DNA from: Terriglobia bacterium
GTDB taxonomy: Bacteria; Acidobacteriota; Terriglobia; JAIQFV01
NCBI GenBank assembly: GCA_020073085.1
Contig: JAIQFV010000004.1
Span: 1 to 64,000 of the forward strand
Reading direction: 5' to 3'
Length of the DNA stretch: 64,000 bases
Shown here piece by piece: positions 36,639-50,714 of the stretch (its first letter is position 1; each line of letters begins with the position of its first letter). The position numbers were made by a program, and so were the translations under genes. The notes under the pieces are model-generated. The model saw only the letters and a list, made by a program, of their open reading frames with translations. It searched no databases and had not been told where the DNA came from.

Positions 36639-36977
36639 GTGCCGATAATTACAGCGGAAGCCAACCCGAGGACGCTAAGGTACTATCAGACAGCGGACGG
36701 AATTGAACCGTTCCGAAGATGGATTCGCAAGCTGAAGGACGAGAGGGGGCGTGCCAAAATTCAAGTTCGGCTTGATCGTGTTGAGGACGGTAATTTCGGA
36801 GATTGTGGGCCAGAGGGCGAAGGCGTTAGCGCCCTCAGGATTGATTTTGGACCAGGTTACAGGGTCTATTTTGGGGAAGACGGTTATACTGTCGTCCTGT
36901 TACTGGGAGGAGATAAATCCAGCCAGGTAAGTGACATCAAGAAGGCCAGGGAATATTGGAGGGACTACAATGCCTAA
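36639..36977 (+). CDS. RelE/HigB-like toxin (addiction module killer family)
   Basis: A 112-residue protein matching the small RelE-superfamily killer proteins of the Gp49/TIGR02683 type. Signatures are PFRRWIRKLKDERGRAKIQV, LDRVEDGNFGDC, LRIDFGPGYRVYF and the C-terminal DIKKAREYW. Such toxins cleave mRNA on the ribosome. Here the toxin gene comes first and overlaps the antitoxin start by eight bases (ATGCCTAA), which is the usual order for HigBA. DNA is AT-richer than the flanks, consistent with horizontal transfer. Confidence 0.92.
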   Translation: MPIITAEANPRTLRYYQTADGIEPFRRWIRKLKDERGRAKIQVRLDRVEDGNFGDCGPEGEGVSALRIDFGPGYRVYFGEDGYTVVLLLGGDKSSQVSDIKKAREYWRDYNA

Positions 36978-37596
36978 GCGGACCGGTGACTATCACGCAG
37001 GCTTATTAGAAGAATTAAGAGACCCTCGAATGGCTGTCCAATATCTGAATGCCGCTCTTGAAGATTCGGAGGAAATGTTCTTAAAAGCTCTCCGCAACGT
37101 GGCGGAAGCAAACCAAATGGCAAAAGTTGCCGAGGAAGCAGGGGTTCAGAGAGAAAGTCTTTATCGAATGCTCTCCGAAACCGGGAATCCGACATATCAC
37201 AGTTTTTCGGGAATTCTAAGGGCACTAAAATTACGATTCCAATTTGTGGCCACTCCACTAGTTGAACAACCCATTCCGGTCGGACAAACGACTGACTCTG
37301 AAGTTCTAAATGCAATCTTATCCGAAGAGGGCTTTCCGGAAAGGACAGATGTCGAGGCGCAATTTAGCACAATGGTTCTCCCCCTTGTCTTATCTTCGAA
37401 CAGCCTTGTCTTTTCGCCTGACTGGTTCAAATCGAGCAATGTTTTCCAACTGATTTCGGCTTGGCGTCAGATTCCAACGACCAGAGAGGACGTCTTTACG
37501 CCACCGCCTCAAGAGCCAGCCCCATTGAATATCGCTGATTGGATTAATCCCACCGCAGAAGAGCCGATGGATTATCGGTCTTATCTCCCAATGTGA
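36970..37596 (+). CDS. HigA-like antitoxin with a long C-terminal extension
   Basis: A 208-residue protein from the ATG at 36970. Residues 1 to about 90 match the addiction-module antidote family (TIGR02684): YLNAALEDSEEMFLKALRNV, then a helix-turn-helix with AKVAEEAGVQRESLYRMLSE and GNPTYHSFSGILRALKLRF. Typical members end there, at about 95-100 residues. This one carries about 110 more residues, rich in Pro and Trp near the end (DWFKSSNVFQ, DWINPTAEEPMDYRSYLPM), which I do not recognise. The N-terminal part should bind and neutralise the toxin and repress the operon. Confidence 0.85.
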   Translation: MPKRTGDYHAGLLEELRDPRMAVQYLNAALEDSEEMFLKALRNVAEANQMAKVAEEAGVQRESLYRMLSETGNPTYHSFSGILRALKLRFQFVATPLVEQPIPVGQTTDSEVLNAILSEEGFPERTDVEAQFSTMVLPLVLSSNSLVFSPDWFKSSNVFQLISAWRQIPTTREDVFTPPPQEPAPLNIADWINPTAEEPMDYRSYLPM

Positions 37597-38180: not shown

Positions 38181-38477
38181 ATGGGAGGCAGCGACCGCAA
38201 GCCCCGCAACCAGCTTCTCTCCCTTTCGTCGGTGGGGTTAATGTTCCCCATCTCGATTGCCATCGGGTATTACATCGGGAGTACCCTCGACAAATGGTTT
38301 CACACCGGCACCAAGATGATGATGCTGTTTGTCGTCTTTGGGATAATTGGCGCATTCCTTAATCTTTTTAAAGAAGTGAAGCGGTATAACCGGACCAATG
38401 AGTCGGACCGGAAGGACGAAACAGCTGACAAGGAAACCCATGCCTCCAGCGACAAATCATCAGGTCCATCTGCCTGA
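38181..38477 (+). CDS. AtpZ/AtpI-family F0F1 ATP synthase accessory protein
   Basis: A 98-residue protein with two hydrophobic helices: LSSVGLMFPISIAIGYYIGS and MMMLFVVFGIIGAFLNLF. It matches the small AtpZ/AtpQ-type proteins encoded at the head of atp operons, which assist c-ring assembly or Mg2+/Ca2+ handling. The C-terminal 35 residues are polar and charged. It overlaps the next gene by 38 bp, pointing to translational coupling. Confidence 0.88.
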   Translation: MGGSDRKPRNQLLSLSSVGLMFPISIAIGYYIGSTLDKWFHTGTKMMMLFVVFGIIGAFLNLFKEVKRYNRTNESDRKDETADKETHASSDKSSGPSA

Positions 38478-38877
38478 TCCGGAATTCTTCATCCAGTTGG
38501 GTCAGAATTTCGTGGCATTGCTGGCGGCTTCGATGGCTGTCCTGGCCCTGAAATACAACGGTGCCGCGATATGGAGCCTGTTGATCGGTGCGGCTGTCTC
38601 CGCAGCCAATTTCTGGCTGCTCAGCCGCAGTATCCCCAAACTATTGCGCCCGGGGACTGCCGAGGGGCTCCCAGTGCAGACAAGCCGCGTCGCGCGGCGC
38701 GCGTTGATCGAGTTTGTCGCCCGATATGTGATCCTGGGTGGGGTCGCCTATCTCGCCGTTCGAAGTCACTCGGTGGACTTAATGGGGTTCGCGTGGGGCC
38801 TGTCTTTGCCCATCTTTGCCATCATGGTCCAGGGGATTCGCATGCTGTTCTCCCTTGAGCACGTGAAGTCGGCCTGA
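38440..38877 (+). CDS. atpI: ATP synthase subunit I
   Basis: A 145-residue membrane protein with four hydrophobic segments. The ATG at 38440 has AGGAAA at 38431, so I prefer it over the upstream in-frame start. It has the AtpI-like layout: a helix near residue 20-40, a Gly/Ala-rich helix (about 45-65, ending in ANFWLLSRS), a charged loop, then two helices. AtpI helps assemble the c-ring of the F0 part. Confidence 0.85.
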   Translation: MPPATNHQVHLPDPEFFIQLGQNFVALLAASMAVLALKYNGAAIWSLLIGAAVSAANFWLLSRSIPKLLRPGTAEGLPVQTSRVARRALIEFVARYVILGGVAYLAVRSHSVDLMGFAWGLSLPIFAIMVQGIRMLFSLEHVKSA

Positions 38878-38907
38878 ATCAAACTTCCCGGAGATTGAGT
38901 CTCAGTC

Positions 38908-39651
38908 ATGGAAGAGAAACCGCTCCTGATTACGATGTGGGTGAACAAGATGCTGGGCCCGGCCGTAGCCCAGTTGCTGGCCCTTTTTGGAATTCACCAT
39001 ACCGGTCCGGCCCCGATCATCCCGGACCACGTTGTGATGAGCGTGTTGATTGTCCTGTTCATCGTGCTGCTTCTGGCCGTGGTTCGACGCACCTACACCA
39101 TGGTTCCCGGAAAGACGCAACAGGTCCTCGAGATGTTGTACGAGTACTTGAAGAACCTGTTGGAGGAAAACATTGGACACAAAGGGGTGAAGTTTCTTCC
39201 GCTCATTGTCACGCTCGCCCTGTTCATCTTCACCAGTAACATGGCCGGCCTGATCCCCGGCCTGAAATCCCCCACGTCCAACTTAAACGTCACGGTCGCC
39301 TGCGCGCTGATCGTCTTCCTCTATTACAATTTCCAGGGACTGAGAGAGCATGGAGTCTTGAATTACTTGAAACACTTTTGCGGCCCGGTCTGGTGGCTGG
39401 CGCCGTTGATGTTTCCCGTCGAAATCGTGAGCCATCTCGCCCGCCCGCTCTCACTCAGTGTCCGCTTGTTCGGCAATATCTTTGGCGAGGACATGATCGT
39501 GCTGGTCTTCTTCGCCCTGGCGCCATTGTTCGTTCCTCTCCCCATCATGGCGCTTCAAATCGTCACCGCGATCGTCCAGACCCTTGTGTTTGTTCTTCTC
39601 ACGACCATGTACCTGGCCGGAGCAGTCGAAAGCGAGGAGCACGAGCACTAA
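38908..39651 (+). CDS. atpB: ATP synthase F0 subunit a
   Basis: A 247-residue stator subunit that forms the two half-channels for ions against the c-ring. The essential arginine lies in PLSLSVRLFGNIFGEDM (about residues 186-202). It also has FIFTSNMAGLIPGLKSPTSN near residue 110 and ends in a short acidic/histidine tail (ESEEHEH). The order atpZ, I, B, E fits an F0 operon. Confidence 0.96.
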   Translation: MEEKPLLITMWVNKMLGPAVAQLLALFGIHHTGPAPIIPDHVVMSVLIVLFIVLLLAVVRRTYTMVPGKTQQVLEMLYEYLKNLLEENIGHKGVKFLPLIVTLALFIFTSNMAGLIPGLKSPTSNLNVTVACALIVFLYYNFQGLREHGVLNYLKHFCGPVWWLAPLMFPVEIVSHLARPLSLSVRLFGNIFGEDMIVLVFFALAPLFVPLPIMALQIVTAIVQTLVFVLLTTMYLAGAVESEEHEH

Positions 39652-39920
39652 GAGCATTGGATGAATCCATTAGGAGGCCAGGAAACCGGGAGGAGTAAAC
39701 GCTGAAGCGGCTTGGGAAAACCTGCCGGGACCAATAAGTTGACTGCAAGACCAGCCTCTTGGTTTCCTGGCTTCCTAATCAAGAGTTTTGAAGGTCAAGT
39801 TTTACCAGCGTGAGGCGGACGGCAAGAGGGGTGTTCCGCAACCACCCACTGGTAAATGTTCATAATCCGGGGAGACTCCGCAAGGCGGTTCCCCCCTCAC
39901 AGAAAAAGGAGAGTCAACGA

Positions 39921-40232
39921 ATGAAGAAAGCTATTCTGATTGCATTGCTGTTGTTGCTCGCCACCACGGTAATGTTCGCCCAGGAGCCTGCCAAGACAAA
40001 AACGACGTTCGGGGAATACGGGGGTGTGATCACGGGCGGATTTGCATTGGCCATTGCGGCGGCGGCGTGTGGATTGGCTCAAGGCAAGGCTGTGACCTCG
40101 GCGTGTGAGGGGGTGGCTCGCAACCCCGGCGCCGCCAAGACCATCCAGCTGTTCCTGATTCTTGGTCTCGCGTTTATTGAATCGCTGGTACTTTATGTAC
40201 TGTTGATTGCATTTCAAGCGCTCGGCAAGTAG
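39921..40232 (+). CDS. atpE: ATP synthase F0 subunit c
   Basis: A 103-residue c-subunit from the ATG at 39921, with GAGAG upstream. The N-terminal 23 residues look like a signal peptide ending at MFAQ. The mature part has two helices: GGFALAIAAAACGLAQGKAV, then the polar loop EGVARNPGA, then LGLAFIESLVLYVLLIAF with the ion-binding glutamate. A glutamine in helix 1, the Glu-Ser pair and the tyrosine five residues later match part of the Na+-coordinating set of I. tartaricus, but the threonine is missing. No b, delta, alpha, gamma, beta or epsilon genes follow, so F1 is encoded elsewhere. Confidence 0.95.
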   Translation: MKKAILIALLLLLATTVMFAQEPAKTKTTFGEYGGVITGGFALAIAAAACGLAQGKAVTSACEGVARNPGAAKTIQLFLILGLAFIESLVLYVLLIAFQALGK

Positions 40233-40700: not shown

Positions 40701-41123
40701 ATGGATGTCAACAATCCCAAGACGATCTTAATCGCGGATGACGACAGCACGACTCGTGATTTGCTGCGCGAGGTGTTTGAGGAGCAGCGTTACGTGGTTT
40801 TTACGGTGAACGACGGCCGTCAGGCTGCGGAATGGTTGGAACGGGAGATCCCATGCCATGTGCTCCTGGCTGACTTGCGAATGCCTTACGTGAGTGGCCT
40901 GCAACTGATCCAGGGAGTCAAGAAGACCCATCCTCAGGTCCGTTGTGTGCTGATTACGACTTGTATTGACAGCGAATTGCTCGCGCAGGCCGAAGCCGCT
41001 GGAATCGCGCAGGTCTTTGAGAAACCGGTGAAAGTCCAGCAGCTGCTGGATTGTGTGGAGGGGTTGGTCGCGACTCGGCCGCAGCCAACTTCTGTGAATA
41101 CAAATCCCGTCCCACCGCCATGA
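40701..41123 (+). CDS. Response regulator, receiver domain only
   Basis: A 140-residue CheY-like protein. The ATG at 40701 has AGGAG seven bases upstream; the ATG at 40695 is too close to that site. It has the acidic pocket ADDD (about residues 12-15), the phospho-acceptor aspartate in VLLADLRMPYVSG (about 57), the switch threonine in LITTC and the lysine in FEKPVKV. There is no output domain and no histidine kinase beside it. It lies 85 bp before the acyl carrier protein gene and may regulate the following cluster through protein contact, which is an inference. Confidence 0.9.
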   Translation: MDVNNPKTILIADDDSTTRDLLREVFEEQRYVVFTVNDGRQAAEWLEREIPCHVLLADLRMPYVSGLQLIQGVKKTHPQVRCVLITTCIDSELLAQAEAAGIAQVFEKPVKVQQLLDCVEGLVATRPQPTSVNTNPVPPP

Positions 41124-41208
41124 AGTGTCACGCGGGACCCTGAAATGGATCACTGATAGATCCAGACAAACGCGGCCAAGCTCAGCCAGATGGCAGGAGG
41201 AGAAACCA

Positions 41209-41523
41209 ATGACGATCGAAGAAAGAGTGATCAATGTGATCACGAGAGAGCAGCACCTCGATGCGGGGAAATGCACGATGGATTCCACCTTTCAGGAATT
41301 GGGCATTGACTCGCTCGATGGGGTGAACATCATGTTTGCTTTGGAAGAGGAATTCAACATCTCAATCCCCGACTCCATTGCCCGGCAGATGAAGGGCGTG
41401 CGGCAGGTGGTTGACGATTTGACCCGCTTCATGGAGGATCCCGAGACCTTCAAGGCCCAGCTGGTGACGAGCGCCATGCCGCTCGAAACCGTTCCCGGAA
41501 AGCCCGCGGGAGGCGTCCAGTGA
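41209..41523 (+). CDS. Acyl carrier protein
   Basis: A 104-residue acyl carrier protein from the ATG at 41209, which has AGGAGG eight bases upstream. The phosphopantetheine serine lies in LGIDSLDGVNIMFALEEEF (about residue 37). The C-terminus is about 20 residues longer than in housekeeping ACPs. Its stop codon overlaps the GTG start of the ketosynthase by the four bases GTGA, so they are translationally coupled. The setting suggests a pathway-specific carrier rather than the general AcpP. Confidence 0.93.
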   Translation: MTIEERVINVITREQHLDAGKCTMDSTFQELGIDSLDGVNIMFALEEEFNISIPDSIARQMKGVRQVVDDLTRFMEDPETFKAQLVTSAMPLETVPGKPAGGVQ

Positions 41524-42767
41524 GAAGAGTGGTCGTGACCGGGCTGGGAGTGATTTCAGCCGTCGGACACTCGGTGGAGGATTTTTTTCACGCCCTCGTG
41601 GCGGGGGAATCCGGAGTCGGCTACATCACTCAGATCGACAACTCCCCCCTGACCGTAAAGATTGCGGCCGAAGTGAAGCACTACGACCCCAATCGCTATT
41701 TTTCCCTCAAACGCCAGGATTACCTCGATCGCTTCGCGCAATTCGCCATTATTGCGGCCACCCAGGCGCTTGAGGATTCCGGGTTCACCCCGAGTGAGGC
41801 GGAGAAGTTGCGCCTCGGGGCGTGCGTCGGGACCGGCATGGGGGGGGCCGAAACGCTGGACAATGGTTTTCGACAGCTATACAAAAACAATGCCCAGCGG
41901 ATGCATCCGTTCACGATTCCCAAACTCATGCACAATGCGGCCGCCAGCCATATTTCGATGGAGTTCGGCTGCAAGGGACCCTCGTTGAGTTTTACAACGG
42001 CGTGTTCCTCGGCCGCCAATGCCATCGGTGAGGGATTCCGTCTGATCAAGTATGGCCAGGCGGACACCATTCTGGCCGGCGGTGCAGAGGCTCCAATCGC
42101 CTACGGAATCCTCCGTGCCTGGGAAGCGATGCGCGTCATGGCATTGGGAAATGGCGATCCAAAACGGGCTTGCCGGCCATTTAGCCGGGACCGGGAAGGG
42201 CTCGTCCTGGGTGAAGGGGCAGGAATCCTCTTGCTGGAGGAATTGGAGCATGCCAGGACTCGTGGAGCCAAAATCTACGCCGAGATTTCCGGTTATGGGA
42301 TGACTTCGGATGCCGATCATCTCACCCACCCCACCAGCGAAGGCCCGTCCCGGGCGATGCAGTTGGCCCTGGAGGAAGCACGGTTGAACCCGGAGGAGAT
42401 CGATTATATTAACGCCCACGGTACCGCCACCCCGACCAATGACGTCAATGAAACACGGGCGATCAAAGTGGTTTTCGGGAGCAAGCCGAACCTGGTGGTG
42501 ACCTCGACGAAGTCGATGCATGGCCATGCCATGGGGGCGACCGGCGCGATCGAGATGATCGTCACGGTGCTGGCAATCCATCGGGGTCTGATCCCGCCCA
42601 CGGCAAATTACTCTGTCCCGGATCCTGAATGTGATCTGGATTACTCTCCCAACCAGGCCCGCGAGAGGACCGTGAGGGCAGCCATCTCCAATTCGTTCGC
42701 CTTTGGCGGACTTAATGCCGTCCTGCTCGCGAAGAAGGTTGATTTTGCCGCCGATCGGATTTCGTAG
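41520..42767 (+). CDS. 3-oxoacyl-ACP synthase (FabF/KS type)
   Basis: A 415-residue condensing enzyme that extends an acyl chain with malonyl-ACP. The Cys-His-His active site is complete: FTTACSSAANAIGEG (Cys at about residue 162), NAHGTATPTND (about 300) and SMHGHAMGATGA (about 337). It starts with GTG and RRVVVTGLGVISAVG. It groups by motif with FabF/KAS II and with ketosynthases of lipid or aryl-polyene-like clusters. The neighbours argue for a dedicated, not housekeeping, role. Confidence 0.93.
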   Translation: MRRVVVTGLGVISAVGHSVEDFFHALVAGESGVGYITQIDNSPLTVKIAAEVKHYDPNRYFSLKRQDYLDRFAQFAIIAATQALEDSGFTPSEAEKLRLGACVGTGMGGAETLDNGFRQLYKNNAQRMHPFTIPKLMHNAAASHISMEFGCKGPSLSFTTACSSAANAIGEGFRLIKYGQADTILAGGAEAPIAYGILRAWEAMRVMALGNGDPKRACRPFSRDREGLVLGEGAGILLLEELEHARTRGAKIYAEISGYGMTSDADHLTHPTSEGPSRAMQLALEEARLNPEEIDYINAHGTATPTNDVNETRAIKVVFGSKPNLVVTSTKSMHGHAMGATGAIEMIVTVLAIHRGLIPPTANYSVPDPECDLDYSPNQARERTVRAAISNSFAFGGLNAVLLAKKVDFAADRIS

Positions 42768-42927
42768 GGTTTCACGCGATCATTCACCATCGGCCCTAAC
42801 GAAGACCCGCACACCCTGGAGAAGAGTCTCGCCTGTTCGGTCGGGACTCTCCCGTCAAAAGGTCCTGATTCCGGTTCGACGATTCACCCGTTTTGGAGGA
42901 GCAAGGTCGAGGTTCGTTGCTTGAGTT

Positions 42928-43683
42928 ATGCTAGATCATCCTTGGACAGTCGAGACTCTGGTTGAGGGAGGGGCGCTCCAGGCGAGTGTCGCACTGGTTC
43001 GAAATGCTGAGGAGGTCCTGCTGATCGACAGCGGCTATCCCCGGCAGGAAAGACAGTTGCTGGATGCGCTGGCACAGCGCGGCCTGACGGCCCGGTCCGT
43101 CACCCATGTGGTGAATACGCATTTGCATTTTGATCATTCCCACAACAACTGCCTTTTTTCCCGGGCCAGGATCGTGTTTTCGCGGCGGGAGTTTGAATGG
43201 ATGACCGATTTGTGTGAACATGTGACCAGCGATTCGTTGACCCTGGAACAGCTCTACAAATACTATCCGGAGCTGAAATCCTTCGAAGATGACCCCAGGG
43301 TGGTATGGGGGATGGTGAAGTTAGTACAGCGGTTCTGGTCGGTGGAGCGCCTGGGGCGCCGTGAGCAATTCCTCTGGCTGGAAGAATGGGCTCCCCCTGA
43401 TGGCATGAAGGCGATTCACACGCCGGGGCATGTCCCGTTTCATCACTCCTTTTCCTTTGAGACCCGAGAGGGAGCAGTGCTCGTGGCCGGAGACGCGATG
43501 GTGACCCGAAGCGATGCCGATCAGAATTCGATGACATTTCCGCCCACGCGCCGTGCCGAGTACGAAGAGACCAAAAGGAAACTTCTGGAATTTGAGGGGA
43601 CGATCGTTCCCGGCCATGACTCGTTGTTTACTTTGACGGCGTTGAATCCTGGGGAATCCACAGCACAGGAGAGTACCACATGA
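42928..43683 (+). CDS. MBL-fold metallo-hydrolase
   Basis: A 251-residue metallo-beta-lactamase-fold protein. The metal site is THLHFDHSHNN (about residues 67-77), with a third histidine in HTPGHVPFH (about 167-175), aspartate in VLVAGDAMV and histidine in VPGHDS. It is cytoplasmic, without a signal peptide. In this setting it could be a thioesterase that releases or edits acyl-ACP or acyl-CoA intermediates, but substrates in this fold are very diverse. Confidence 0.88.
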   Translation: MLDHPWTVETLVEGGALQASVALVRNAEEVLLIDSGYPRQERQLLDALAQRGLTARSVTHVVNTHLHFDHSHNNCLFSRARIVFSRREFEWMTDLCEHVTSDSLTLEQLYKYYPELKSFEDDPRVVWGMVKLVQRFWSVERLGRREQFLWLEEWAPPDGMKAIHTPGHVPFHHSFSFETREGAVLVAGDAMVTRSDADQNSMTFPPTRRAEYEETKRKLLEFEGTIVPGHDSLFTLTALNPGESTAQESTT

Positions 43684-43765
43684 AAACGCCTTCGGCTGCC
43701 CTGCCTTGCTGGACCCAATCCCTGGGGATGTTTTGAGGGGTTGATGGGGGAAGAGAAAAGAAACA

Positions 43766-45106
43766 ATGGCGATCTTGACCGCGGTCAGTGAGTTTGTTGA
43801 AGAGCGCATTGTGAACCGCAGGCCTTCCGTGGCTTTGCAGATTGGCACCCATCTGCCCATGTGGTTCATCGACCAGGTCAAGTCGTCCCGCTTTCAGTCC
43901 ATCATCCGTTATGCCGCCGAGAAATCACCTTTTTATCGGCGCAAATTCCGGGAGTTGGGGGTCGACCCGCGGCACGTCAAAACGCCTTCCGATTTGAAAG
44001 ACTTCTTCACCACCTCCGAAGACCTTCGCTCTCATCCGGTCGAAGAGTTTATTTGCGGAGCACCGCAGATCGCCTTTGAAACGACCGGCACCACCTCAGC
44101 CCGCAACAAAAAGGTCTTTTTTGGAGTGCAGGAGATGGAGTCGATGGCACGTTACGGGGCGATTGCATTGACCCACCTCGGGCTGACAGCGTCGGATCGC
44201 GTCGTAAGTGCGTTCGATCATTCCTTCTGGGTTTCCGGCCCCCTGGCCCGCGAAATCACCCGGCTGATCGGTTGTCTTCACGTCGAAGCAGGCAAGATCG
44301 AGCCGGGGGAGTTTTACGGGCGGGCCGCGGAATACAAATTCAATGTCATCATCGCGGAGCCCTCCTGGCTGTTGCGAGTGAGCGAAATTGCCAGCGCCCG
44401 CGGGACCTGGCCGATGAAGTTGTTGCTGGTGGGCGGTGAGAATATGACCGAACAGACGCGCCGCTACATCGAGGATGTCTGGCAGGTGGACCTGATCATG
44501 GAATACGGGCAGACGGAATCGTTCGGCGCCATCGGGGTCGAGTGCCACCGGAAGGACGGTTATCACCTGAATGAACTGAATTTTCTTTTTGAGATCGACC
44601 AGCCGGATCCCGACGGGTATGGGGAGCTGGTTTACACGACGTTGACTCGCAAGGTGATGCCCCTTGTTCGTTATCGCGCCGCGGATATGACCCGGCTGAT
44701 CGATGCCCCGTGCCCTTGCGGATTGCCCATGCGTCGCATCGCCAAAATCCGGTCGCGAAAGGACGAGATGGTTGTCTGTGGCATGGGAAATATTTCCCCA
44801 TGGATCTTTGAGACAACACTGCGGGGGGTGAATGGCATCAGTCCCGATTGGCAGATTCTCGTGACTCGGCCCGCCCATAAGGACCATGTCGAGTTTCAAC
44901 TCGAGCTGACTAACGGAGAGGATCCGGGGCTGGTGACCGAATCGATCCGACAGAGTCTCCGGTCGCAGTTCTCCGACTTTTGGAAGAACTACGAGATGGG
45001 CCTGTACGAGCTTGATTTCAAATTCGGGGCCCGGGGTTCGTTGCGACAGGGCCGGAAGTTGCTTCGCCTTGTGGATCAACGCCGTGGACTGGTGGATTCC
45101 CGGTGA
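43766..45106 (+). CDS. PaaK-like adenylate-forming enzyme
   Basis: A 446-residue member of the phenylacetate-CoA ligase group of the ANL superfamily. It shows a P-loop-like FETTGTTSARNKKVFFG (about residues 98-114), the adenylate-binding MEYGQTESFGAIGVECH (about 246-262), and LVRYRAADMTRL (about 300-311). A PaaK-type cluster CPCGLPMRR (about 315) follows. It would activate a carboxylic acid as an acyl-adenylate and load it on CoA or on the neighbouring acyl carrier protein. The substrate is not predictable by eye. Confidence 0.88.
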   Translation: MAILTAVSEFVEERIVNRRPSVALQIGTHLPMWFIDQVKSSRFQSIIRYAAEKSPFYRRKFRELGVDPRHVKTPSDLKDFFTTSEDLRSHPVEEFICGAPQIAFETTGTTSARNKKVFFGVQEMESMARYGAIALTHLGLTASDRVVSAFDHSFWVSGPLAREITRLIGCLHVEAGKIEPGEFYGRAAEYKFNVIIAEPSWLLRVSEIASARGTWPMKLLLVGGENMTEQTRRYIEDVWQVDLIMEYGQTESFGAIGVECHRKDGYHLNELNFLFEIDQPDPDGYGELVYTTLTRKVMPLVRYRAADMTRLIDAPCPCGLPMRRIAKIRSRKDEMVVCGMGNISPWIFETTLRGVNGISPDWQILVTRPAHKDHVEFQLELTNGEDPGLVTESIRQSLRSQFSDFWKNYEMGLYELDFKFGARGSLRQGRKLLRLVDQRRGLVDSR

Positions 45107-45167
45107 AAATCTGTCTCGGTTCCGTGCGAGTGAACCCAGAATATAATAGAAAAGTTGAGTGTTCTCG

Positions 45168-46187
45168 ATGAGTTTCAAAAAACGATGTGGAGCGGGGGCG
45201 GTAATTGTCCTCGTGTGTTTCTTCTCCTTTGGGGCGAATCATTACGCGGGATCCATCGTAATCCAGGAACCCGCCGTCCGGCAGCTGCTGAAAAGCGGGA
45301 TGGACGCCCTGTTCAACCTCGATTATGCGAAAGCGTGGGATGATTTCCAGAAGGTCAAGCAGTTGAAGCCCGACACCCCGTTGGGAGAAATTTTTGAATC
45401 GGAATTTTACTGGTGGAAGATCTTCAATACCACGGGTGATTTTTACAACCTGGACTACATCGATTCCCTGAAAACAAAACAGTCGGATTTCGATGGTCAG
45501 TTTATCAACACGATGGAAAAGACTTTCACCAAGGCCGATGCCTATCTCAAGACCCATCCCCAGGATGCCGAGGCCTATTTTCATGTGGGCATGGCGAATG
45601 CCCTGCGATCTCGTTTGGAGGCGGGTCGGGACCACACCCTCGCGGTGGTCAAGTACGTGAAAAAATCCCGCGAGTATCTCGACCGCTGCGTGTTGCTGGA
45701 TCCGAACTTCAAGGATGCCTTGCTGGGACTGGGAGCATATAACTATTACGTTGAAGAGTATGGCGGCTTTTACAAACCCTTGCGCTTTCTGATTCGCCTT
45801 CCGGCGGGTGACCGGCAGCGGGGAATTCAGCAGCTCGAGGAGGCGTCGCAGCAGGATGGGTTCATCTCCACCGAAGCCAAGTTCTTCCTGGTGTCCATCT
45901 ACCTCCGGGATTCCCAGAAACGGTATGCAGACGCGGAGCGGATGCTGCATGATCTGACAGAGAAATATCCCAACAACCCGATCTTCCGGTTTGCGCTCGG
46001 ACATGCGCAGATGATGCAACACCAGTATGACTCGGCGCGCGAGAATTTCAAGAAAGTGGCTGCACATCGCGAGACACCGGGGTTGGGAGATCTGGCGATC
46101 CAGGTGAAAAAGGAGTTGGAGTCGCTCAACACGAAAGGCTCCAGTCTGGGCACAGCCATGAGCGAGGAGTCGGGCGGTTCCCGGTAA
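45168..46187 (+). CDS. Secreted TPR protein
   Basis: A 339-residue protein starting at ATG 45168, with a signal peptide (about residues 1-27). TPR-like helix pairs follow, including YAKAWDDFQKVKQLKPDTP near the start, DAEAYFHVGMANALRSRLEA in the middle, and FRFALGHAQMMQHQYDSARE near the end. It would act as a periplasmic or membrane-linked scaffold. Its place between an adenylating enzyme and a glycosyltransferase is unusual; it may be part of the same transcription unit. Confidence 0.85.
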   Translation: MSFKKRCGAGAVIVLVCFFSFGANHYAGSIVIQEPAVRQLLKSGMDALFNLDYAKAWDDFQKVKQLKPDTPLGEIFESEFYWWKIFNTTGDFYNLDYIDSLKTKQSDFDGQFINTMEKTFTKADAYLKTHPQDAEAYFHVGMANALRSRLEAGRDHTLAVVKYVKKSREYLDRCVLLDPNFKDALLGLGAYNYYVEEYGGFYKPLRFLIRLPAGDRQRGIQQLEEASQQDGFISTEAKFFLVSIYLRDSQKRYADAERMLHDLTEKYPNNPIFRFALGHAQMMQHQYDSARENFKKVAAHRETPGLGDLAIQVKKELESLNTKGSSLGTAMSEESGGSR

Positions 46188-46260
46188 AGCGCCGGGATAA
46201 AGGTGCGAAGACAGGGAATTCCTGCTCCGAGTTTGGTTGAGAGAATAGGGTGAAGGTGAA

Positions 46261-47487
46261 ATGGCACGCAAGCGAATTCTGATCCTGACACTTTCGTTCG
46301 GCACCGGCCATGTCGTGGCCTCTGAGGCCATTGCTCAAGCCATCCGCCTGCTCGATCGGGCCGCCGAGGTCCGCACGATCGACTGCATTCAGCTTGCCAC
46401 CTGGTGGTTTCGCGCGGCTTACGTCTGGACATACTGGATGATGATCCGGTTTGCACCCTCTCTTTGGATCCGTTTGTTCAGGGCAAGGCAAACCCGGATG
46501 CATCAGCAGACGGCGCCCGGCTGGATCTTCCGCCTGGGGTGCCGCCGTGTGTTCCAGCAAATACGAGCATGGAAACCTGATGTCCTTGTGGCGACCGAAG
46601 TGGGGGCTTGTGAGATCGCTTCGCTCGCCAAGCGTCATCAGGGGTTAACCATACCGCTCTTAGCCGTGGCCACCGACCACGAATCCGAGCCTGTGTGGTT
46701 GAAAGAGGAAGTCGATCAGTATTTTGTGCCGACGCCGGGAGTTGCCGAGCAACTGAACCGGTGGGGCGTGGATCGACAAAAAATTTCGGTGAGTGGTATC
46801 CCGGTTCACAGCAAGTTTTTCAGGGGGACGGCCGACGGCGAGATCCGGGATAAATTGAAATTTCCGAACGATCGACCCCTGGTCCTCATCATGGGGGGCG
46901 GGATGGGGCCGCTCAGAATGGATCAGATCGTCCGTGAGCTTTCGACTTTGCCCCGGGCCCTCTCTTTTGTGGCGGTCACGGGACTGAACGCCAAAATGCA
47001 AAAGCGGCTGGGGCAGTTGAAGTCGCAAATGCCGCCGGACAAATCCCTCACAATCCACGGATGGGTCGAGAATGTGGATGAATTGATGCGCGCGGCGGAT
47101 GTGCTGGTGACCAAGCCCGGCGGAATCACGCTGACGGAGGCTTGCTCGGTGGGGGTGCCCATGGTCTGCGTCAATCCTATTCCGGGGCCGGAGCAGACTC
47201 ATTGCCGCTTGATTGAAGAGGAACATCTGGGTGTGGTGGCCCGCAGCGTCAATGAAGTGTGTGCCAAGGTGGAAGAGATCATCGATGGCGGCAAGCCCTG
47301 GGCGAGCCGGCCCTCTCCGGGATGGTTGAAGCGCGACGCGGCAAAGCAGATTGCAGGGAGCGCACTCGAAGGTGTTTGGCCCCCCCGCACTCAAGAAGGG
47401 AATGTCTACTACGCGCCGCCTGCGGGCCCAGGTGCTGTTCCCGGCAAAAAAGCGCCCGTGCTGCTCCAGCCATTGGAAACGGAGTAA
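46261..47487 (+). CDS. MGDG-synthase-like glycosyltransferase (GT28)
   Basis: A 408-residue glycosyltransferase. The N-terminal MGDG_synth domain begins ILTLSFGTGHVVASEAIAQA and carries an aromatic-rich membrane-contact helix (about residues 45-70). The C-terminal GT28 part has ILMGGGMGPLR and the nucleotide-sugar motif VTKPGGITLTEACSVGVPMV (about 280-299). Family members transfer glucose or galactose to diacylglycerol, as UgtP and MGD1 do. It therefore probably glycosylates a lipid on the inner membrane. Its stop codon overlaps the region just before the phosphatase start. Confidence 0.9.
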   Translation: MARKRILILTLSFGTGHVVASEAIAQAIRLLDRAAEVRTIDCIQLATWWFRAAYVWTYWMMIRFAPSLWIRLFRARQTRMHQQTAPGWIFRLGCRRVFQQIRAWKPDVLVATEVGACEIASLAKRHQGLTIPLLAVATDHESEPVWLKEEVDQYFVPTPGVAEQLNRWGVDRQKISVSGIPVHSKFFRGTADGEIRDKLKFPNDRPLVLIMGGGMGPLRMDQIVRELSTLPRALSFVAVTGLNAKMQKRLGQLKSQMPPDKSLTIHGWVENVDELMRAADVLVTKPGGITLTEACSVGVPMVCVNPIPGPEQTHCRLIEEEHLGVVARSVNEVCAKVEEIIDGGKPWASRPSPGWLKRDAAKQIAGSALEGVWPPRTQEGNVYYAPPAGPGAVPGKKAPVLLQPLETE

Positions 47488-47495
47488 TGGTCTCA

Positions 47496-48227
47496 ATGAA
47501 GCCCATTGTATTTTGCGATTTCGACGGTACCATTACGCTCGAAGATACCACCGACTTGATCTTGGAATCGTTTGCAGATCCCGCCTGGCGAGCGGTGGAG
47601 GAGCGGTGGCTGGCCGGGAAGATCGGATCGCGCGAGTGTTTGCAGGAGCAGATGTCACTGGTCCGGGCCGGTGAAAAGGAGCTTGGAGAACTCGTGGACT
47701 CCGTTCCGGTGGATCCCCATTTCCTTGAATTCGCCGGGGAGTGGGTGGCCCGCGGGTTCCCGTTCTATATCCTCAGCGATGGGTTCGACTGGGTCATCCG
47801 GCGCACCCTCTCGCGGCCGGAATTGAACGGGAAGGGAATCGTCGAGAGGTTTCGAATCTTTGCTAGTCAACTCGAGATTCGTGAACAAGGCATGAAGACC
47901 ACCTTTCCCCACGGCTCCGTCCAATGTACCCACGGCTGCGCGACCTGCAAACCGCAACTCATGCAGAGCGAGGGCCAAGGTTGTTCACCCCTCATCTTCA
48001 TCGGCGATGGGGTCTCCGACCAGCGGGCGGTAGCGTGCGCCGACTTGGTCTTTGCGCGAAAATCCAAATCCCTCTCACAATTCTGCACGGAACGGAAAAT
48101 TCCTCATATCCCCTTTCAGGATTTCGGGGAAGTGCAGCGGGAACTGTGGCAGCAATTGACTGCCCTGGCCGCCGGAGACACCAGCGCGGCCAACCCCCTC
48201 ATTCTCTCTTACGAAACGGAGTCGTGA
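47496..48227 (+). CDS. HAD-IB phosphatase, MtnX-like
   Basis: A 243-residue HAD-superfamily phosphatase. Motif I is FCDFDGTITLEDTTD (about residues 6-20), motif II is ILSDGFDWVI and motif III/IV is FIGDGVSDQRAV. A Cys-rich segment CTHGCATCKP lies near residue 146. I prefer the ATG at 47496, 11 bases after GGAG, over 47487. MtnX acts in methionine salvage, but no other salvage gene is present. In this cluster it may remove phosphate from a lipid-linked or amino-alcohol intermediate, which is an inference. Confidence 0.85.
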   Translation: MKPIVFCDFDGTITLEDTTDLILESFADPAWRAVEERWLAGKIGSRECLQEQMSLVRAGEKELGELVDSVPVDPHFLEFAGEWVARGFPFYILSDGFDWVIRRTLSRPELNGKGIVERFRIFASQLEIREQGMKTTFPHGSVQCTHGCATCKPQLMQSEGQGCSPLIFIGDGVSDQRAVACADLVFARKSKSLSQFCTERKIPHIPFQDFGEVQRELWQQLTALAAGDTSAANPLILSYETES

Positions 48228-48230
48228 TCT

Positions 48231-49634
48231 GTGACCATCGAATCTCCCTCTCAGAATCGCCGTATCGACGAGCAGGAACTCCTGGAACGCGAACGCGAAT
48301 ACTGCTCCTTCGGGGATACCGTTCATTATTTGGAGCCCCCCAAGGTGTTTGTTCGGAGCGAGGGTTGTTTTCTATACGATGCCGAAGCCACCCCGTATAT
48401 GGATTTGCAGATGTGGTATTCAGCGGCGAGTTTCGGATACGGAAACCCGCGTCTGAACGCTGCCCTCAAACGGCAACTGGATCAACTCCCGCAATTGGCC
48501 TGTCAATACCTGCATGAGGAAAAGGTGGAACTGGCCGCGAAGATCGCGGAGCGGTGCGAGCAGGCGTTCGGGATCAAGGGCCGTGTTCACTTCAACGTGG
48601 GGGGGGCCCAGGCGATCGAGGATTCTCTCAAGATCGTTCGCAATTACACGAAGAAGAATTTGATGTTCGCCTTCATGGGCGGCTACCACGGACGAACGCT
48701 GGGGGCAACCGCCATCACCTCCAGCTACCGGTACCGGCGTCGATATGGTCATTTCTCCGAACGGGCTCAGTTCATCCCCTTTCCATACTGCTATCGGTGT
48801 TTCTACGGGTTGAAACGAGAGAGCTGCGAGCTGTATTGCTTCAACCAGTTCGAAAAACTGTTTGAAAGCGAATACTACGGCGTGTGGGATGCCAAGGCGA
48901 AGGAATGCGAATACGGGGCCTTCTACATCGAGGCCATGCAGGGGACCGGCGGTTATGCCGTTCCTCCGAAGGAATATTTCCAGCAGCTCGAACGGGTTTG
49001 CCGCGAGCGGAAGCTGCTCATTGTGGACGACGAAATCCAGATGGGCTTCTACCGGACCGGGAAGTTCTGGGCAATTGAGAACCTGGGAATTAAGCCTGAC
49101 ATCATTGTTTTTGGAAAGGCGCTGACGAACGGGTTAAACCCGCTCTCGGGGATCTGGGCGCGGGAAGAGCTGATCACTCCGGAGCTGTTTCCTCCGGGGT
49201 CAACACACTCCACCTTCTCCTCCAATACCCTGGGCACGGCGGTGGCGCTCGAGGCCCTGAAGATGATGGAGGAAACGGACTATGAGGCGCTGACCTTGGA
49301 GAAGGGCGCGCGCCTTCTGGAAGGGCTTCGTGACCTTCAGCGGAAGCATAAGGAGGTCATCGGCGAGGTCAACGGCATGGGTATGGCGCTCCGCATGGAA
49401 ATCACACGGGCGGATGGAATTACTCCCGACCGTGCCATGTGCGATAAGATTTTTGCGGAAGGGATACAGGGGCGCCTGGAGCTTAACGGCAGGAAATACG
49501 GTCTTGTGCTCGACGTGGGCGGCTATTACAAAAATGTTTTCACGATCGCGCCGAGCTTTACTATGACGGATGAGGAGATCAATCTCGCCCTGGCGCTCTT
49601 CGACCAGTTGATCGACCGCTGCAAGAAGATGTAA
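48231..49634 (+). CDS. Class III PLP aminotransferase
   Basis: A 467-residue aminotransferase of the GabT/ornithine type. It has the phosphate-binding NVGGAQAIEDSLKIVR, the GGYHGRTLGATAITSS loop, the cofactor aspartate region LLIVDDEIQMGFYRTG (about residues 258-273) and the Schiff-base lysine in VFGKALTNGLNP (about 291). A four-cysteine insert (CYRCFYGLKRESCELYC, about 185-201) could bind metal. The GTG start is three bases after the phosphatase stop, so they are coupled. It would put an amino group on an aldehyde or ketone, perhaps acyl-derived. Confidence 0.9.
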   Translation: MTIESPSQNRRIDEQELLEREREYCSFGDTVHYLEPPKVFVRSEGCFLYDAEATPYMDLQMWYSAASFGYGNPRLNAALKRQLDQLPQLACQYLHEEKVELAAKIAERCEQAFGIKGRVHFNVGGAQAIEDSLKIVRNYTKKNLMFAFMGGYHGRTLGATAITSSYRYRRRYGHFSERAQFIPFPYCYRCFYGLKRESCELYCFNQFEKLFESEYYGVWDAKAKECEYGAFYIEAMQGTGGYAVPPKEYFQQLERVCRERKLLIVDDEIQMGFYRTGKFWAIENLGIKPDIIVFGKALTNGLNPLSGIWAREELITPELFPPGSTHSTFSSNTLGTAVALEALKMMEETDYEALTLEKGARLLEGLRDLQRKHKEVIGEVNGMGMALRMEITRADGITPDRAMCDKIFAEGIQGRLELNGRKYGLVLDVGGYYKNVFTIAPSFTMTDEEINLALALFDQLIDRCKKM

Positions 49635-49641
49635 ATTCATT

Positions 49642-50097
49642 ATGCCCCGTCTGACCCTCGCCGAAATTCAGCAGTTACTCCCGCATCGGTCTCCTTTCCT
49701 TTTCGTCGATGAAATTGAGGACTACGAGTTGGGAATTCGGATTATTGGACGGAAGAGATTTTCAGCGGATGACTTTTTCCTGCAGTCCGGCCTCGAATTT
49801 GTTCCGGAGACCCTCTTGATTGAAACTGCCGCTCAAGTCGGAGCGCTGTTGATCTTGAAAGATCCGGCTTACAGCGACAAGATTCCTTACTTCATGTCGG
49901 TCGAAGGGATGACGTTTCATCGCCGCATCCGGGTGGGTGAAACCGTTCGCGTCGTCGGAACAATTGAAAGGATCCGAGGTGCATTTGGTATTTTGAGCGG
50001 GCAGGCATGGGTCGGTGAGGAGCATGTGGCCGAGGGGACCATGCGGGTTGCGCTCGCCGATCGTTCCTCAGCTGCAGCAGACCGCTCCCCGATATGA
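49642..50097 (+). CDS. FabZ-like 3-hydroxyacyl-ACP dehydratase
   Basis: A 151-residue hot-dog-fold protein. LPHRSPFLFVDEI (about residues 13-25) holds the catalytic histidine, and PETLLIETAAQVGALLIL (about 55-72) holds the catalytic glutamate position. It fits FabZ, which dehydrates 3-hydroxyacyl-ACP, but is divergent in the second half. It lies seven bases after the aminotransferase and its stop overlaps the start of the next gene (ATGA). With the ACP and ketosynthase genes it supports a dedicated acyl-chain pathway. Confidence 0.88.
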   Translation: MPRLTLAEIQQLLPHRSPFLFVDEIEDYELGIRIIGRKRFSADDFFLQSGLEFVPETLLIETAAQVGALLILKDPAYSDKIPYFMSVEGMTFHRRIRVGETVRVVGTIERIRGAFGILSGQAWVGEEHVAEGTMRVALADRSSAAADRSPI

Positions 50098-50714
50098 AAC
50101 CCATTTCGATGTTTTTTGAGGCGGACCCATCAAACAAGCCGGCCCGAGCCTTCTCTCGGGGCGCCTGTTGCGTGGTGCTTGCCTCCGTCCTCCTGGCAGG
50201 GGGTCTCTCGCCCATCAGCGGGGCACAATCGTTACCTGCGGGCACCGTTCCTCAAATGGATCCGCCTACCCCTGCCTCCTGCGGCTCCGGCCTGAAGCTC
50301 TATGACTCCCCCTTCTTCAAGATCTGTTACCCGAGGCGATGGCACGTCATCCGCGGCTATGGGGTAAACTATGCCTGGTGGGTGTTTTCAAAGCGCAAAC
50401 GCGGGGAGCAATTCGACATCCCTTACATTCGCGTCATCATTGCCAAAGGGATTGCAGAACCGCACCTCGCCAAGCAAACCGACTCCACCGTCCTGGGCGA
50501 GCGAACCTATGTCAAGACCACCAACGAATTCAGGGAAGTGACCGGCAAGAAATTGAATGGCCGGTATTGGCGCGAGATCGCTGTCGGTCCGGAATTCGAC
50601 ATCCTCGCCTGGTATGAGCAGATCAAGATGAAGAACTTGAAACTGTTTGAACGGGCGCTGGATTCGTTTTGGGTGCCTCCCCCGCCGCGGGTTCGACCCA
50701 AGCCGGAGAAGTAG
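50094..50714 (+). CDS. Secreted protein of unknown function
   Basis: A 206-residue protein. Its start ATG shares bases with the stop codon of the dehydratase gene. A hydrophobic stretch (about residues 22-40, CCVVLASVLLAGGL) after a basic segment looks like a signal peptide, though the N-terminus before it is long; a later start is possible. The mature part has SPFFKICYPRRWHVIRGYG and a C-terminal PPPPRVRPKP. I do not recognise the family. It is the last gene of the coupled run and is followed by a heptad-repeat element. Confidence 0.7.
   Translation: MKPISMFFEADPSNKPARAFSRGACCVVLASVLLAGGLSPISGAQSLPAGTVPQMDPPTPASCGSGLKLYDSPFFKICYPRRWHVIRGYGVNYAWWVFSKRKRGEQFDIPYIRVIIAKGIAEPHLAKQTDSTVLGERTYVKTTNEFREVTGKKLNGRYWREIAVGPEFDILAWYEQIKMKNLKLFERALDSFWVPPPPRVRPKPEK

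Follow-up and report, generated by a model that had tools for sequence, protein, structure and literature searches.

A 64,000-nucleotide stretch of DNA from a Terriglobia bacterium (phylum Acidobacteriota; contig JAIQFV010000004.1), hereafter called the window, carries at positions 40701-50714 a run of eleven intact open reading frames, all on the + strand. Seven of these genes recur in order in relatives, and the best explanation for them, to which a probability of roughly 0.45 was assigned, is a dedicated amino(glyco)lipid pathway, whose chemistry and product are predicted. A first-pass annotation, which placed all eleven genes correctly, had proposed that they form one uncharacterised pathway of chain building, activation, amination, dephosphorylation and glycosylation. 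A single pathway held up insofar as gene order is conserved in relatives and the ketosynthase and acyl carrier protein are not those of housekeeping synthesis; the dehydratase role and the equal membership of all eleven genes did not. The window genome comprises 5.79 Mb in 68 contigs.

Fifteen neighbourhoods of relatives were collected using the window ligase as query, and the window proteins were mapped onto them. A second family, f4, belongs to the same class as the window's own family, f1. In it, a single-domain response regulator receiver (RR), an acyl carrier protein (ACP), a FabF-type ketosynthase (KS), a glycosyltransferase (GT), an adenylate-forming ligase (LIG), a HAD phosphatase and a class III pyridoxal phosphate (PLP) aminotransferase (AT) lie in the order RR-ACP-KS-GT-LIG-HAD-AT on one strand. 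All seven were present in order in each of the 14 window-type (type a) loci with at least 6 kb of upstream sequence. Identity to the window proteins in f4 was highest for AT (71-77%), ACP (mostly 63-74%) and KS (about 60-63%), followed by HAD (43-48%), LIG (43-45%) and GT (35-44%). The other four genes of the run, which encode a metallo-beta-lactamase-fold hydrolase (MBL), a tetratricopeptide repeat (TPR) protein, a FabZ-like hotdog protein (DH) and a secreted protein (SEC), are found in the window's own family and are absent from the f4 clusters. AT itself was found in 38 of 399 sampled genomes of the class, belonging to f1, f4 and one genome of f3; of the named records, a Terriglobia metagenome assembly (L061) is nearest, its AT being 96% identical to that of the window. 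This conservation supports a pathway and splits the run into a seven-gene core and four family-specific genes. The first-pass annotation had itself named a neighbourhood not conserved in relatives as grounds for giving up the pathway. A same-strand run alone is weak evidence, since the neighbouring atp and dus genes share the + strand, and four genes of the run are lineage-specific, as might be expected if unrelated genes lay side by side by accident. Such an accident is scarcely credible: it is ruled out by the conserved gene order and, for the core, contradicted by an order shared across families whose proteins are about 40-75% identical.

The first-pass annotation overlooked the HAD-AT pair as a widely distributed core. 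The HAD gene (47487..48227) encodes an MtnX-like HAD-IB phosphatase that scores above the TIGR01489 cut-off and has 2fea as its nearest structure. Three bases downstream, the AT gene (48231..49634) encodes a class III aminotransferase (PF00202, Aminotran_3) with its PLP lysine at Lys296, and is the hub of the family. Relatives of AT occur in at least seven phyla at 61-77% identity; those beyond Acidobacteriota, at 61-71%, come from Omnitrophota, Pseudomonadota, Thermodesulfobacteriota, Myxococcota, Gemmatimonadota and Chlamydiota. The class III paralogs in the window genome are only about 31-33% identical and fall outside the AT family on a long branch of the tree. In the 69 loci flanked on both sides, an MtnX-like HAD gene was always within 2.5 kb of AT, and each of the 84 loci examined had one nearby.

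The partners of this pair change. LIG was found in 39 loci, an alpha/beta hydrolase (ABH) in 37 and neither in seven; the two were together in none, and the LIG and ABH contexts largely track the AT tree. A second cluster type in Acidobacteriota (type b; gp4/gp6, Pyrinomonas) contains radical SAM, ABC transporter, one or two glycosyltransferase, polysaccharide deacetylase, HAD, AT and LIG genes, and Omnitrophota clusters contain two KS, ACP, AcpS, FabZ-like proteins and LIG. Pseudomonadota clusters contain ABH, an EamA pair, a FemAB/GNAT protein and an arginase-family protein, often DegT and sometimes ACP-KS. Adjoining HAD-AT in Legionella (L128:12043-15075), an AMP-ligase, an ACP and ABH are fused in one protein, and this fusion suggests that ABH works on ACP-bound acyl groups. 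We infer that LIG and ABH are alternative ways of joining an acyl chain and a head group. On three plasmids that were opened (L141, L142 and L143, from Agrobacterium, Xanthomonas and Sinorhizobium), HAD-AT occurs with arginase-family, EamA, ABH and FemAB genes; AT alone matches 34 plasmid records, Rhizobium and Bartonella included, half of which (17/34) were predicted to be conjugative. At least 550 related stretches were found by scanning. As a tentative proposal, HAD-AT may be an undescribed module, spread by horizontal transfer, that supplies one particular amino head group to a new class of lipids of the bacterial membrane or for export, with chain-building (ACP-KS), joining (LIG or ABH), glycosylating and flipping partners that differ between lineages.

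Residues of AT bear on its substrate. AT shares with gamma-aminobutyrate (GABA) aminotransferase the class III fold, the PLP lysine (K296) and the switch glutamate (E234, equivalent to E211 of GABA aminotransferase), at about 27% identity, but it has Thr438 where the GABA enzyme has Arg398, and MWYSA for the usual glycine-rich stretch. In GABA aminotransferase, Arg398 binds the alpha-carboxylate. Of the Arg398/Glu211 combination that would mark a GABA or alpha-keto-acid-dependent class III aminotransferase, AT therefore keeps only the glutamate. Thr438 was invariant in 32 sequences, and three AT paralogs from the window genome retain arginine at this position. Because an invariant threonine replaces Arg398, the substrate of AT would probably lack an alpha-carboxylate. 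An AlphaFold model of AT (pLDDT 75.5, low at residues 150-193) confirmed the class III fold and left the pocket unresolved. AT also has an invariant basic motif, YRYRR (residues 166-170), that could meet phosphate or ACP. As for HAD, it belongs to the same MtnX-like HAD-IB subfamily as MtnX, but scored 112-117 bits against the TIGR03333 cut-off of 303, and no methionine-salvage genes were seen beside it in the neighbourhoods looked at.

Two other activities of AT were weighed against these observations. The best Protein Data Bank sequence match of AT is an archaeal alanine/serine racemase, racemases rank high by fold and phosphoserine phosphatases come second among the structures closest to HAD, all of which would suit a racemase or lyase acting on an amino acid or amino-alcohol phosphate, with HAD-AT supplying a D-amino acid or similar head group. 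This activity is improbable, as the identity is below 30%, E. coli GABA aminotransferase ranks equal by fold, and the racemase 9wqz keeps arginine where AT has Thr438 and has HGQT where AT has HGRT. Alternatively, the acyl chain could be released as an aldehyde and then aminated by AT to give a long-chain alkyl amine. An aminotransferase without the carboxylate-binding arginine would fit this route, and a NAD_binding_4 (thioester-reductase-like) gene lies in the same stretch of Pyrinomonas and gp6 clusters, but there is no reductase in the window cluster or the f4 clusters and HAD would be left unexplained; the route is judged unlikely.

ACP (41209..41523; PF00550, PP-binding) has its phosphopantetheine serine at 41311-41313 (DSL), and KS (41520..42767) scored 530.5 bits against the TIGR03150 cut-off of 493.75, with Cys motif TACSSA and His motifs NAHGTAT and KSMHGHAMG, as is characteristic of FabF ketosynthases. 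Housekeeping plsX-fabD-fabG-acpP-fabF genes were found on another contig of the same genome (C6). The window KS is 46% identical to the genome's own housekeeping FabF, and the window ACP 39% identical to its own AcpP. A housekeeping role does not explain KS and ACP: they lack linkage to plsX, fabD or fabG, KS is not the sole FabF and it falls elsewhere in the tree. A third FabF-like KS of the genome lies on contig C8 (L145:8162-11981) with, by eye, a thioesterase-like protein, a possible methyltransferase and a flavin oxidoreductase, and has relatives in f1 and f4 genomes.

Ketosynthase trees were inferred by quick maximum likelihood with SH-aLRT support, using housekeeping FabF from ten named genomes and seven genomes of the class. 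Type a KS formed a group distinct from housekeeping FabF (SH-aLRT 99), together with KS encoded next to HAD-AT in Pseudomonadota, Thermodesulfobacteriota, Gemmatimonadota and Thermoanaerobaculia; two classes of Acidobacteriota are represented in it. The grouping persisted after every KS of the ten named genomes was added (SH-aLRT 93). The KS of Omnitrophota and Pyrinomonas fell separately. An extra member of the group is an unlinked KS with its own adjacent ACP, in a HAD-AT-bearing genome that has no linked KS. An exclusive clade of cluster KS was rejected because this unlinked KS falls inside it (monophyly of 23 rows, p-AU 0.008; nodal support 93; quick tree). Seven of the eight genomes tested that lack a linked KS, some of them drafts, have no KS of the group in the tree, and chain building is for this reason considered accessory to the HAD-AT pair.

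This distribution also bears on the main competing explanation, in which AT acts on the beta-ketoacyl-ACP formed by KS and turns it into a beta-amino fatty acyl chain, a type of reaction known from the AMT domain of mycosubtilin synthetase. KS, ACP and AT are co-inherited across phyla, AT is a class III enzyme without the alpha-carboxylate arginine, its YRYRR motif could face ACP or phosphate, and amination at this stage would explain why the cluster has no ketoreductase, whose absence the first-pass annotation had correctly reported. Against this stand the seven genomes that carry AT and HAD with no KS of the group, the constant phosphatase partner, which would remain unexplained, and the presence of FabG-like SDRs in Omnitrophota clusters. 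A beta-amino product is therefore doubtful, although it is the most serious of the rivals.

A dedicated ACP-KS pair has precedent. NodF and NodE of Nod factor synthesis are a type II fatty-acid-like system with its own ACP and FabF-type KS, and the window likewise has a dedicated ACP-KS pair apart from housekeeping synthesis. In some Acidobacteriota relatives there is, in addition, a polysaccharide deacetylase of the NodB family (PF01522). Unlike in Nod-type clusters, no NodA or NodC equivalent was seen, and a class III aminotransferase and a HAD phosphatase are central instead.

LIG (43766..45106) is a PaaK-like adenylate-forming ligase that matched the NF045666, FlxY and PaaK models below their cut-offs (133.5 bits against 646 for the phenylacetate-CoA ligase model TIGR02155) and resembles the PaaK structures 4r1l and 2y27. 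Its score of 108 bits to FlxY, together with the KS pair, two FabZ-like proteins, ACP and AcpS of the fatty acid synthase II-like Omnitrophota relatives, raised the question of whether the cluster belongs to the aryl polyene/flexirubin pigment class. This is very unlikely, since the score is far under the FlxY cut-off of 520 bits and the window has one KS with no chain-length-factor partner, no ketoreductase and no competent dehydratase, in agreement with the first-pass annotation, which had seen no aryl-polyene core set; the window also adds the HAD-AT pair. A sphingolipid pathway finds no counterpart either: no alpha-oxoamine synthase domain occurs among the eleven proteins, consistent with the reported lack of serine palmitoyltransferase. 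GT (46261..47487) shares PF06925 (MGDG_synth) and the glycosyltransferase core with monogalactosyldiacylglycerol (MGDG) synthase and diacylglycerol glucosyltransferase, but scored 198 bits against the NF010135 cut-off of 500 for diglucosyl diacylglycerol synthase. Known superfamilies account for every enzyme of the cluster. Among the library models that reached their cut-offs, none names the pathway, and the open-access literature yielded no account of the pathway or the HAD-AT pair (subscription papers were outside the search).

Based upon these assignments, an amino(glyco)lipid pathway could proceed as follows. ACP and KS would make or extend a particular acyl chain. AT would aminate an aldehyde or ketone that lacks an alpha-carboxylate, and removal of a phosphate by HAD, before or after this step, would yield a small amino-alcohol-type head group, conceivably from a phosphorylated aldehyde or ketone. 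LIG would adenylate the free acid and join it to the amine, a step in which ABH acting on acyl-ACP may replace it in Pseudomonadota and some other lineages, and GT would add a sugar. The resemblance of GT to lipid glycosyltransferases (nearest structures by sequence 9wde and 4wyi) favours this pathway. Several points weigh against it. Of 20 ABH-type loci whose flanks extend 8 kb or more in each direction, only four had a KS within 12 kb; chain building is thus optional to the pair, and the first step may not be intrinsic. LIG could load ACP instead of forming an amide, and the proposed head-group substrate is conjectural. Extensimonas soli (L137) and E. vulgaris (L103) both carry the pair, but the former was reported with an unknown aminolipid and the latter without it (PMC11936349). 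The polar-lipid reports of species descriptions are not informative on the HAD-AT product. Serinol was tried as a candidate product and set aside; the bacterial example concerns the Campylobacter capsule and nothing here singles out serinol.

The remaining genes of the run may serve regulation (RR) and family-specific trimming or export (MBL, DH, TPR and SEC). RR (40701..41123; PF00072, Response_reg, 79 bits) adjoins ACP in the second family too. MBL (42928..43683; PF00753, Lactamase_B) is lactonase-like, retains the metal motif HxHxDH and was found in three f1 genomes, the exception to the f1 limit being a weak 31% match on the opposite strand in one f3 genome. The TPR protein (45159..46187; TPR models) has a hydrophobic N-terminus and is confined to f1. 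DH (49642..50097) matches PF07977 weakly; in an alignment to E. coli FabZ, three f1 proteins keep the catalytic Glu and lack the GHFP histidine, and owing to this loss DH is probably not a dehydratase. SEC (50094..50714) occurs only in the window genome, L047 and L061 and has no assigned family, with no Pfam match even at E<=1. The family assignments of the other nine proteins were borne out by domain models. The tight junctions that the first-pass annotation had described were confirmed too, namely overlaps of four bases at ACP/KS (41520-41523) and DH/SEC and short gaps at HAD-AT and AT-DH (7 bases at the latter); it missed a 1-base GT/HAD overlap at 47487. The remaining gaps measure 50-160 bases, the largest being KS-MBL. 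A promoter and terminator scan gave nothing usable above chance.

Directly upstream of the cluster, at 38181-40232, are genes for AtpI-like, AtpB (a subunit) and AtpE (c subunit) proteins, with no b, delta or F1 genes after them; the atpE-receiver junction recurs in a related genome (G002, L147). An HI1420-type addiction-module antidote-like protein (PF21716) is encoded at 36931-37596. Downstream of AT in several f4 genomes (L051, L055 and others), a large beta-propeller (SBBP/DUF7948) protein followed by pilM/pilN/pilO-like genes was seen by eye.

If the proposed pathway is correct, an undescribed lipid or amphiphile would be made by many soil and plant-associated bacteria, given the at least 550 related stretches, found among others on Rhizobium and Agrobacterium plasmids and in Legionella, Xanthomonas and Acidobacteriota. 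The window organism is apparently uncultured; cultured carriers include Pyrinomonas, Extensimonas, Telmatospirillum, Oleiagrimonas and Agrobacterium. Since 'unknown aminolipids' are common in species descriptions, the cluster would offer a concrete genetic handle on such compounds that can be tested by knock-out.

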